Source: an uncultured Pseudanabaenaceae cyanobacterium (GTDB lineage: Bacteria > Cyanobacteriota > Cyanobacteriia > PCC-9006 > JAAUQQ01). Taken from it: a DNA stretch of 48,334 bases. The position numbers were made by a program, and so were the translations under genes. Under the pieces are notes generated by a model. It had not been told where the DNA came from, did not search any database, and saw only the letters and a program-made list of their open reading frames with translations. This document shows, in pieces, positions 42,603-48,334 of this stretch; within the stretch, counting starts at the first letter, position 1; each line of letters starts with the position of its first letter. The stretch is from contig CALLAT010000030.1 of assembly GCA_938002085.1 (NCBI GenBank), positions 1-48,334 on the forward strand. The letters run 5' to 3'.

Positions 42603-45029
42603 ATGCCTTTTACTCCAGAGCAGTGGCGTGGCGAAGCTGTTGCAAATCCACTTAGCAGTGGTACTCAAAATGAACCTAAAATTGTTCAATTAGCCAATGG
42701 AAATTTGTTGGTTGCTTGGGAAGATAATGGAAACAATTATGATTCAGCTAATGGATATGACGTGATTGGTCAGCTATATGACCCGTTGCGTAATGCCATT
42801 GGGAGCCCGTTTCGATTAAATGGACTTTACTCTATTGATGATGAACAAGACATTGAGTTAGCTGCTTTAGATGATGGTGGGTTTGTTGCTGTTTACGAAG
42901 ATACAAATTCGGATGGCACCAGCATTCGGGCGACGGAATGGAATGCCACTGGTACATCTTCTAATACTCGCACGATTTTGAGTGATCCTGGTACTGATAC
43001 ACTCTACAACCCATCTGTTGCGACTGGTATCGATGGTAAGTACCTTGTGTCTTATAACCGCTCAAGCATTAGCAATTTTGTTACCTATACTAGGCTGGTT
43101 GATCCAGTGGCTGGTACTATCGGTCCCGTTCATGATGCGATTGTAAATGGTGTTGACATAACTGTAACTGAAGAGAATGCCATCGCTGCGTTGAGTAATG
43201 GTGATTATGTGGTTGTCAACCGCTATCATGGCGCAGATAATGCCATCGCATTTGCAAGAGTTGCTTCAAATGGTGCTGGGTATTTTGGTTCCCAAGATTA
43301 TGTCGCGAATACTAATACGAATGGAGATGATGACTTTGATGTAGATGTCGTTGCATTAAAGGGAGGAGGGTTTGTTATTGCGTGGTCCAACACAGACTCT
43401 AACGACACAGATATCCAGTTTCAACGCTATAATAATGCCGGAATTGCCCAAGGTTCTGTGGTTACCGTTAACGGGAATGCGACTACCGATAATAAGAATG
43501 AGGTGTCTCTAGCTGCATTGGATGATGGTGGGTTTGTCGTTATTTATGACAATGATGTGACTGGCTTTAGTCAGATCGCAGGACAACGGTATAACTCTGT
43601 GGGTAGTGCTGTTGGCTCAACATTTATAGCTGCTCCTAATGGGGGACAAGCACCTGAAGGAATTGGACTTGAGGACGGTCGATTTATTGTTGCGTGGGAT
43701 GACCCATTTCAAATTCGAACAAAGGTTTTTGATGTTCGCGATAATGCTAATACTTTGCCGGTTTATACCCCAGAAGACTACAAGGTTGGTACGGTGGGAG
43801 CTGATACCTTTTCAGCCTCTGCAGATGTAAACCACGGTTGGACTGGTGACGATGTCATTTCTGAAGTGTCTTTGAATTTTGGTGAAGATATCTTCGGTGA
43901 TGGAGGCAATGATACTATTGTCTCCGACTTTGGTATTGGCTTAACTGATACTTTCCACGGAGGTAGTGGCTCCGATACGTTGGATTACACCAATATTTCT
44001 TTCAGTTTACTGTTCGATCTTCCCAATGAAAGGGTGAGGCCACTTAACCCTTCTAATGCCTTTGATACCGTGATTAGTTTTGAAAATGTCATTGGTGGAA
44101 ATGGTCAGAATACTTTCCTTGGCACCAATTCTAATAACGATTTCATAGGTGGTACTGGAACCGACAAGATATTTGGCAAGAGCGGTAACGATACTCTCAA
44201 CGGTGGGGGAGGAAATGACCTACTGAGTGGAGATGGAGGGGGAGATATGATCAACGGTGGCTCTGGCATTGACACTGCCCGCTATGAAGCTTCTAATGCA
44301 GCTGTCAATATTGATTTGTCCGTCTCTGCCCAATCAGGTGGTCATGCAGCTGGAGATATGCTGACCTCCATTGAAAATGTGTTCGGTTCCAAAAGCTATG
44401 GAGATACAATTTTCGGTGATAATAGCAATAATCGTCTTTATGGTTTTGGCGGAGCAGATTTTCTATCGGGTAGAGATGGAAATGATATTTTGCAAGGTGG
44501 AGCAGGAGGCGATTTTCTTGATGGAGGAGGGGCTTCTGATTGGGCCTATTATCATCGCTCATCAGCGGGAGTTAATATTGACTTAACAGCTGGCACAGCT
44601 TCTGGTGGTGATGCAACAGGAGATACTCTTGTGAGTATCGAACGGTTGTATGGCTCTTCCTTTGCTGATGTACTCACTGGTAAGTCTGGTGTGAACACGC
44701 TGACAGGCAATGCTGGTAACGATATTCTGGATGGAAAAGGTGGTAATGACACACTGCTGGGCCGTGGAGATAATGATACATTGACAGGTGGCAGCGGCGC
44801 AGACCAATTCCGCTATACAGAATCTATCTTTGGTGTTGATCTCATCACTGATTTCGAAGACGGAGTTGATAAAATTAATCTGATTGGTTCGGGTTTAGTC
44901 CCAGGGGATTTCTCTGCTACGCAAGTCGGTTCTACCGCTCGGTTAACACTTGCAGTTAATCCTTCGAACATCATCAACTTGGCTAATATGAATATCGCTG
45001 ATATCACGCCAGCTGATTTCGTATTCTAG
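42603..45029 (+). CDS. Seven-repeat propeller fused to RTX repeats
   Basis: The 808-aa protein has a good ribosome binding site (AAGGAG about 10 bp before the ATG). Residues 25-385 contain seven repeats with the core A-x-L-x-DGGFVV-x-W/Y, such as LANGNLLVAWEDN, ALDDGGFVAVYED, ALSNGDYVVVNRY, ALKGGGFVIAWSN, ALDDGGFVVIYDN and LEDGRFIVAWDD, which suggests a seven-bladed beta-propeller. From about 390 to 775 it carries RTX-type calcium-binding repeats, two of them around DLTAGTASGGDATGDTLVSI-like linker units. The C-terminus (VDLITDFEDGVDKINL) is a type I secretion-type end. Codon choice is T- and A-ending more often than in neighbours, pointing to possible transfer. Function: probably extracellular or surface protein. 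Confidence 0.82.
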   Translation: MPFTPEQWRGEAVANPLSSGTQNEPKIVQLANGNLLVAWEDNGNNYDSANGYDVIGQLYDPLRNAIGSPFRLNGLYSIDDEQDIELAALDDGGFVAVYEDTNSDGTSIRATEWNATGTSSNTRTILSDPGTDTLYNPSVATGIDGKYLVSYNRSSISNFVTYTRLVDPVAGTIGPVHDAIVNGVDITVTEENAIAALSNGDYVVVNRYHGADNAIAFARVASNGAGYFGSQDYVANTNTNGDDDFDVDVVALKGGGFVIAWSNTDSNDTDIQFQRYNNAGIAQGSVVTVNGNATTDNKNEVSLAALDDGGFVVIYDNDVTGFSQIAGQRYNSVGSAVGSTFIAAPNGGQAPEGIGLEDGRFIVAWDDPFQIRTKVFDVRDNANTLPVYTPEDYKVGTVGADTFSASADVNHGWTGDDVISEVSLNFGEDIFGDGGNDTIVSDFGIGLTDTFHGGSGSDTLDYTNISFSLLFDLPNERVRPLNPSNAFDTVISFENVIGGNGQNTFLGTNSNNDFIGGTGTDKIFGKSGNDTLNGGGGNDLLSGDGGGDMINGGSGIDTARYEASNAAVNIDLSVSAQSGGHAAGDMLTSIENVFGSKSYGDTIFGDNSNNRLYGFGGADFLSGRDGNDILQGGAGGDFLDGGGASDWAYYHRSSAGVNIDLTAGTASGGDATGDTLVSIERLYGSSFADVLTGKSGVNTLTGNAGNDILDGKGGNDTLLGRGDNDTLTGGSGADQFRYTESIFGVDLITDFEDGVDKINLIGSGLVPGDFSATQVGSTARLTLAVNPSNIINLANMNIADITPADFVF

Positions 45030-46526: not shown

Positions 46527-46559
46527 TGGCTAATCCATTGCGGTAACTTTGCATCTCTG

Positions 46560-46601
46560 ACGCTAACAAAGGATTTCGAATTGACTTGTAGTATCCGTTA
46601 C
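46560..46601 (-). promoter_or_regulatory. NtcA-activated promoter of the gpgS-type gene
   Basis: On the minus strand GTA-ACGGATAC-TAC (46601-46588) fits GTA-N8-TAC exactly. It is followed by 22 bp (46587-46566) and then TAGCGT (46565-46560), which fits TA-N3-T. This is the canonical layout of class II NtcA-activated cyanobacterial promoters (spacing 20-24). Transcription would start near 46553, giving a leader of about 27 nt before the ATG at 46526. NtcA responds to nitrogen shortage. Confidence 0.75.
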
Positions 46602-46693
46602 GATCACTCAAAATTTCGGAAAAAGATATGTCAAAAGAAGAATTCTAGTGTTCTAGAAGACATAATCTGTCCCAAGCTAGAGATTGAATTACC

Positions 46694-46736
46694 GTAGTAT
46701 TGGTCACAAATGGGCGTATCCCATGCGTCTTACAAT
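46694..46736 (+). promoter_or_regulatory. NtcA-like promoter of the GH13_18 gene (one mismatch)
   Basis: GTA-GTATTGGT-CAC (46694-46707) differs from GTA-N8-TAC in one base and is followed, after 23 bp, by TACAAT (46731-46736), a good -10 box. Transcription would start near 46743, just before the ATG at 46758. Its orientation and spacing mirror the site for the divergent gene. Confidence 0.45.
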
Positions 46737-46757
46737 GAGGTGCTGTCTGCTCTGCCC

Positions 46758-48334
46758 ATGGATTCTATGACCGCAACTGAACAACCTGTCGCTGACTTCT
46801 CTGCACAACTCCGCGATCGCCTGTCTCCATTGCTTCGGTTGCTTTACCCCCAGCAAGATCAGGCCGCGTTGGTTGAGAAAATTAGTGATGTTGCTGTTCA
46901 GCATCTCACCCCGATTCCCTCTGTTGTCGAGCCTTGGGATGAGCAGACGTTGGTCATGATTACCTATGGGGACAGCATTTTGCCTGCGGAGGGGGAGCCT
47001 GAGCAGAAGCCCTTGCAAGTCCTCGCTCAGTTCCTCACGGACAATCTGGATGGACTGCTGAAAACAGTCCATCTTTTGCCGTTTTTTCCCTATAGTTCCG
47101 ATGATGGTTTTTCTGTCATTGACTATCGCGAAGTGAATCCTGATCTAGGGGATTGGCAAGATGTTGAACGCATTGCTCAATCCTTTGAGGTGATGAGTGA
47201 TCTGGTTGTTAATCACATCTCTAGTCAATCCCAATGGTTTCAACAATTCATTGAAGGAACTCCACCGGGTTGCAACTACTTTATTGAGGGCGATCCGAGT
47301 TTGGACCATAGTACTGTGGTGCGTCCTCGCAGTAGCCCGCTGCTGACGCCTGTGGAGACCCATGCCGGTCTACGCCATGTGTGGACGACGTTTAGTGCGG
47401 ATCAAGTGGATCTGAATTTTGAAAATCCGGCGGTGCTGCTGGAGTTTGTTGATATAGTTCTGGGCTACTGTCAGCGCGGGGTGCGTTGGATTCGCCTGGA
47501 TGCCGTGGGCTTCCTTTGGAAAAAGCTGGGCACTTCCTGTATGCATTTGCCGGAGACCCATGCCGCCATTCGATTGATTCGGGAGGTCTTGGCCCTGACC
47601 TATCCCACGGCGGTGATTATCACGGAAACCAACGTCCCCAATCGGGAAAACCTCAGCTACTTTGGCAATCGCAATGAAGCCCATATGGTGTACAACTTCA
47701 GCCTGCCGCCGCTGCTGTTAAATGCCTTGATTCGGGGTGAGGCTCGCCATATCAAAACCTGGATGATGAGTATGCCTCCGGCTCCCCAGGGCTGTGCTTA
47801 CTTCAACTTCACGGCTTCCCATGATGGCATTGGCATGCGCCCGGCGGAGGGGCTGTTGGCTGATTCGGAGTTGGGCACATTGGTAAAAACCATGGAGCAG
47901 TTTGGCGGGCGCATCAGCTACCGCAGCCGCAGTGACGGCAGCAAGTCCCCCTATGAGTTAAATATTTCCCTGTTCGATGCGCTCCAGGGGACGATCAAGG
48001 GGCCGGACCAATGGCAACGCCAGCGGTTTCTCTGTTCCCAGACAGTGATGATGTCCCTGGAAGGGGTGCCTGCGTTTTATATCCACAGCCTGTTGGCGAC
48101 GCCCAATGATCAGGCCAAGGTGGAGCAAACGGGCCATAATCGCAGTATCAACCGTCATCAGTGGGATAGTGAGCAACTGGAGCAAGCTCTGGCGGATCCT
48201 GATTCGGATCAGGCTTGGGTGTTCAATGCTCTGAAAGAGCTTATGGCCCTGCGCAGTCAGCAGCCTGCCTTCCATCCCAATGCGACGCAGTACACGCTGC
48301 AATTGCAAAATCCAGCGATTCTGGGCCTGTGGCG
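46758..48334 (+). CDS. GH13_18 phosphorylase (glucosylglycerate/sucrose phosphorylase type), 3' end cut off
   Basis: The frame is open to the window end: 525 residues are visible. It starts at ATG 46758 or 46767; ATG 46710 lies upstream of the predicted promoter. The sequence matches GH13 subfamily 18 disaccharide phosphorylases: HLLPFFPYSSDDGFSVIDY, the nucleophile D248 in RLDAVGFLWKKLG, acid/base E290 in ITETNVP, and FTASHDGIGMRPAEGLL. These enzymes split sucrose, glucosylglycerol or glucosylglycerate with phosphate, giving glucose-1-phosphate. The divergent gpgS-type neighbour favours glucosylglycerate as substrate; sucrose is the alternative. No break is seen in the visible part. Confidence 0.88.
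   Translation, partial: MDSMTATEQPVADFSAQLRDRLSPLLRLLYPQQDQAALVEKISDVAVQHLTPIPSVVEPWDEQTLVMITYGDSILPAEGEPEQKPLQVLAQFLTDNLDGLLKTVHLLPFFPYSSDDGFSVIDYREVNPDLGDWQDVERIAQSFEVMSDLVVNHISSQSQWFQQFIEGTPPGCNYFIEGDPSLDHSTVVRPRSSPLLTPVETHAGLRHVWTTFSADQVDLNFENPAVLLEFVDIVLGYCQRGVRWIRLDAVGFLWKKLGTSCMHLPETHAAIRLIREVLALTYPTAVIITETNVPNRENLSYFGNRNEAHMVYNFSLPPLLLNALIRGEARHIKTWMMSMPPAPQGCAYFNFTASHDGIGMRPAEGLLADSELGTLVKTMEQFGGRISYRSRSDGSKSPYELNISLFDALQGTIKGPDQWQRQRFLCSQTVMMSLEGVPAFYIHSLLATPNDQAKVEQTGHNRSINRHQWDSEQLEQALADPDSDQAWVFNALKELMALRSQQPAFHPNATQYTLQLQNPAILGLW

Follow-up and report, generated by a model that had tools for sequence, protein, structure and literature searches.

How is glucosylglycerate synthesis in cyanobacteria tied to nitrogen supply? 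The solute is reportedly tied to nitrogen-poor environments, as the title of a 2010 paper by Klahn has it. It is negatively charged and balances K+ when nitrogen limits glutamate (PMC4390839). In Synechococcus WH8102, the synthase GpgS clusters and rises with nitrogen-stress proteins (PMC11020310). In BL107 after filtration, gpgS fell (log2 -2.06) along with nirA, urtA, ntcA, and amt; because many photosynthesis genes fell too, this co-decrease is a weak pointer to a nitrogen link (PMC5063861). Mycobacterium hassiacum reportedly accumulates glucosylglycerate under nitrogen starvation (PMC5381378); there, likewise, it is a nitrogen-linked solute. What was known before is the nitrogen-poor habitat and the rise of GpgS in nitrogen-stressed Synechococcus; the switch is not named in the open literature found. 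M. hassiacum is not known to have NtcA, and regulation there is unrelated. The accessible portions of the open-access literature on glucosylglycerate or gpgS and NtcA yielded no paper naming NtcA as the gpgS regulator, and the accessible literature on the Synechococcus PCC 7002 genes A2021-A2023 names no regulator.

We address this question in a 48,334-nt stretch of DNA from an uncultured Pseudanabaenaceae cyanobacterium (the window), which belongs to an assembly of 3.96 Mb that is 62.6% complete. The original prediction placed back-to-back NtcA-type promoters in an intergenic region of about 230 bp, between a glucosylglycerate-type synthase and a phosphorylase, and proposed direct nitrogen control of synthesis and perhaps recycling. 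The intergenic region exists and measures 240 bp (46527-46766), taking the ggaP ATG at 46767. Its features are collected in the table.

Features of the gpgS/ggaP locus in the window
Feature	Coordinates	Strand	Remarks
gpgS, glucosyl-3-phosphoglycerate synthase, 420 aa	45264..46526	-	Full-length NF040724 match; 75% identity to Picosynechococcus PCC 7117 GpgS
-10 element TAGCGT (TAN3T)	46560..46565	-	Exactly 22 nt from GTAACGGATACTAC; predicted start ~46553
Predicted NtcA box GTAACGGATACTAC, perfect GTAN8TAC	46588..46601 (read 46601..46588)	-	Position kept in relatives
Candidate NtcA-like box GTAGTATTGGTCAC	46694..46707	+	TAC -> CAC (T12 -> C); GTN10AC kept; A at position 3
Candidate ggaP -10 TACAAT	46731..46736	+	23 nt from GTAGTATTGGTCAC; predicted start ~46743
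ggaP, GH13_18 glucosylglycerate phosphorylase, N-terminal 522 codons	46767..48334	+	Cut by contig end; TETN motif, RPAEG loop A

Both gene identities are supported. The gpgS product matches NF040724 (GpgS_Meth) over its full length with E 2.4e-156 and 520.6 bits, short of the curated cut-off of 700; the PCC 7117 GpgS itself scores only 506.6 bits and also falls under that cut-off. The best PDB matches of the ggaP product are glucosylglycerol and sucrose phosphorylases. Glucosylglycerate phosphorylases (GGaP) are marked by a (T/S)ETN motif and a loop A glutamate, RPAEG (PMC7178133). The translation reads ITETN and GMRPAEG, the SP, SPP, and GGoP loop motifs are absent, and the expected linkage (gpgS or gpgP nearby) is present; motif, glutamate, and linkage together sharpen the phosphorylase to the GGaP type. 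The window gene is 61-74% identical to the genes adjoining gpgS in relatives. Its start is most likely the ATG at 46767, because homologues begin there with MTAT, MIAT, or MTI; a longer reading from the in-frame ATG at 46710 would swallow the TACAAT element.

In all nine genomes with the closest gpgS, ggaP is divergent from gpgS, and Picosynechococcus PCC 7117 has the same divergent order as the window. In three relatives (L035, L036, and L037), ggaP runs without a gap into a gene whose product matches TIGR01486, the family of mannosyl/glucosyl-3-phosphoglycerate phosphatases, at 239-252 bits (cut-off 165), so that the operon also holds gpgP, the second enzyme of glucosylglycerate synthesis. 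Because the flanking genes are gpgS and ggaP, the intergenic region divides the first synthesis enzyme from the operon of the breakdown enzyme. The same three enzymes are encoded in PCC 7002, where GPGS, GGAP, and GPGP are A2021, A2022, and A2023 (PMC10873239), whereas in the window gpgP lies past the contig end. On the other side, at 42603-45029, an 808-aa protein with RTX calcium-binding repeats is convergent with gpgS. Three other genomes of the genus (G003-G005, 68-87% complete) carry neither gpgS nor a close ggaP; the glucosylglycerate cluster is patchy within the genus.

Does gpgS carry an NtcA promoter? In NtcA class II promoters, a TAN3T -10 element follows GTAN8TAC, which lies some 41.5 nt ahead of the start (PMC3898017). 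Ahead of gpgS we find this arrangement, with operator near -41.5 and canonical spacing. The -10 element sits 33 nt ahead of the ATG (46526), and a start about 7 nt past it gives a 27-nt leader; the coordinates and spacing originally predicted (perfect GTA-N8-TAC, N22, TA-N3-T, 27-nt leader) are thus exact. Canonical class II promoters (urtA, nirA, ntcB, and glnA) share this geometry; here, in contrast, the promoter stands before a gene for osmolyte synthesis and not one for scavenging nitrogen, and the 3' half-site is relaxed in distant relatives. No sigma-70 -35/-10 pair occurs in the intergenic region, and a palindrome, TTCTAG-N4-CTAGAA, lies at 46643-46658 between the two boxes.

To estimate chance occurrence, we shuffled the dinucleotides of the 240-bp region 20,000 times. 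The exact minus-strand promoter arises with P = 0.0016. The 3.96-Mb genome holds 241 GTAN8TAC sites. Full promoters with N21-23 number 16, the gpgS site among them, and few of the 16 stand in promoter position. The other promoter-placed matches precede genes for a FIST protein, a GAF protein, a response regulator, and a DUF2809 protein, and were unusable as a positive control for NtcA targets.

The original prediction had named loss of the boxes in relatives as its refutation. MAFFT alignment of the intergenic regions was uninformative because the flanks are saturated, and a box-anchored comparison was used instead. The closest clade (gpgS identity at least 74%) comprises nine genomes: the window and G002 from one family (f1), G155 (f15), and six from f37, the family of Picosynechococcus, a Limnothrix MAG, and kin. 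Eight of the nine have GTAN8TAC 75-101 bp ahead of gpgS (75, 81, 78, 99, 99, 101, 90, and 90 bp); the ninth, G392, has GTC in place of GTA. A -10-like element follows at N22-23: TAGCGT in the window, TAGTAT in G002, TATGTT in G155, and TAATAC, with a final C rather than T, in the Limnothrix MAG. All Picosynechococcus strains examined, including the one without the GTA box, have a second, abutting box, GTCGYTTTAGATAC-N22-TAAYTT. Aligned on the box, the flanks are only 19-38% identical (two close pairs excepted), so it is the box that is conserved and not the region. The positional conservation has a shuffle-based Poisson-binomial P of ~7e-9 over five collapsed lineages, with the window left out.

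More distant gpgS genes seemed box-free under strict GTAN8TAC, a reading overturned by the GTN10AC core, which ChIP data describe for NtcA (PMC3898017). From that source and the close clade we fixed a pattern in advance: GTN10AC with A at 3 or T at 12, N22-23, and TAN3T. On 25 distant gpgS upstream regions meant as negative controls it gave 17 matches, against 0.07 expected; a typical one is GTAGTGATTCAGAC-N23-TATGAT, 28 nt ahead of the ATG. We then extended the set to 88 upstream regions from 34 genera, allowing N22-24 and [TA]AN3T, a loosening made after the first matches had been seen. Since related genomes are not independent, we count genera: 50 of the 88 regions and 16 of the 34 genera match, against 0.23 genera expected, and 18 genera are without the relaxed element ahead of gpgS. 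The matching genera lie in f1, f3, f12, f15, f22, f26, f37, and f41. Fifteen of the 16 have an A after AC that the pattern does not ask for. Controls agree: the mirrored motif gave 0/81, and in a scan of all open reading frames of 150 aa or longer at these loci, every match preceded gpgS and no other gene (the 16 matches in f12 all precede gpgS, beginning MDYKQ...TTIHD). In picocyanobacteria the element is absent from this place ahead of gpgS (0/16 and 0/59). The box thus withstood the comparison on the gpgS side, in the close clade and far beyond it.

These counts weigh on two alternatives. A chance match without regulatory role could draw on the 16 such matches in the genome, most of them outside promoter position; positional conservation across families, in nearly half of the genera surveyed, makes this very improbable. 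Could another regulator of the CRP family, of the SyCRP1 type, use the conserved site? GTN10AC fits within the CRP consensus TGTGAN6TCACA too, and 3' half-sites beyond the close clade usually read GAC, AAC, or CAC rather than TAC. Against this, 15 of 16 genera have GTA rather than GTG as the 5' half, the full GTAN8TAC is present in the window's clade, and the -10 spacing is that of NtcA class II; we consider such a regulator distinctly improbable. NtcA remains our preferred reading: gpgS is likely, with good confidence, a directly NtcA-activated gene. Going by the promoter, NtcA very probably acts on it directly, both here and in many further cyanobacteria. The prediction of gpgS as a new NtcA target is well supported, and outside the picocyanobacteria its conservation reaches beyond this genome.

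In six loci of f26 (L170-L175), TTGACAT and AACAAT follow immediately on the GTN10AC core of the gpgS promoter, for example GTAGCAAAACTGAC; here an NtcA-like core and a sigma-70 promoter overlap. Farther upstream, about 150 bp from gpgS, two of these six loci also have GTAN8TAC-N22-TAN3T.

Is ggaP under the same control? The plus-strand promoter exists as predicted: one mismatch (CAC for TAC), N23, and TACAAT, with a leader of ~24 nt. Taken alone it is within reach of chance, with a shuffle P of 0.046 at one mismatch or fewer and 0.015 as GTN10AC. That both promoters should share one intergenic region by chance was called unlikely, and the joint P of 0.00025 agrees. The joint value, the kept GTN10AC with A at 3, the spacing, and the lack of a sigma-70 pair favor direct activation of both genes, each by its own box. 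The plus-strand P values pull the other way, as does the comparison with relatives: none of the relatives examined, G002 and G155 included, has a counterpart of the GTAGTATTGGTCAC box in this position, and the unlinked ggaP genes of f12 have no such promoter. The operator on the ggaP side is neither perfect nor conserved. Activation of both genes by separate boxes is a tentative and somewhat unlikely reading, and direct NtcA control of ggaP in this organism is possible but unproven. Of the nitrogen control first proposed, the gpgS half is borne out by a conserved promoter of the NtcA type, and the ggaP half is not.

Alternatively, a single NtcA dimer bound at the box nearer gpgS might serve both directions. 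In all six f37 genomes (L036, L008, L115, L116, L118, and L037), a TAGNNT element (TAGGCT, TAGACT, or TAGTTT) lies on the ggaP side of that box with a spacing of exactly N21, and shared divergent control is possible there. The ggaP leader would then be 177-221 nt, N21 is below the canonical 22-23, and the window, G002, and G155 have no TAGNNT at that spacing, which leaves a single dimer unlikely.

The regulator itself requires comment. No ntcA was found in this incomplete assembly (best match 69.5 bits, cut-off 245). NtcA is encoded, at 365-377 bits, in each of the order's five other genomes, so incompleteness is the simplest explanation. A positive control with glnA failed: none of the six genomes of the order (G000-G005; L196-L200) has a type I GlnA above the TIGR00653 cut-off. 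Five of the six have a weak match inside an open frame of 601-752 aa, and these frames may be type III (GlnN) glutamine synthetase. No canonical full promoter precedes ntcA or the weak GlnA-like frames in the order loci examined.

For gpgS, we infer NtcA binding, activation, and a metabolite response as follows. Nitrogen shortage would raise 2-oxoglutarate, and NtcA would bind GTAACGGATACTAC and recruit RNA polymerase to the TAGCGT element 22 nt downstream, as in class II activation. GpgS would rise, and more glucosylglycerate would be made, a nitrogen-free anion that can stand in for glutamate as K+ counter-ion. The divergent ggaP(-gpgP) operon would supply the phosphatase for the second step as well as the phosphorolytic return to glucose 1-phosphate and glycerate. 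The conserved promoter would directly explain glucosylglycerate build-up when nitrogen is scarce, and offers a testable mechanism by which the 2-oxoglutarate signal would be tied to osmoprotection, K+ balance, and the C:N ratio of the cell.

A broader history is evenly poised in our judgement: direct NtcA activation of gpgS would be old and widespread outside picocyanobacteria, swapping glutamate for a nitrogen-free counter-ion, and picocyanobacteria would have lost or rewired the promoter. In WH8102, GpgS likewise responds to nitrogen stress, but picocyanobacterial gpgS is without the promoter element at this place. In Prochlorococcus MIT 9302 (L084, 1442-7933), ggaP-gpgP and a kinase-like gene run divergently from gpgS, which adjoins a gene that reads by eye as ureC of a urease cluster, so that genes for urea nitrogen lie beside those for glucosylglycerate.
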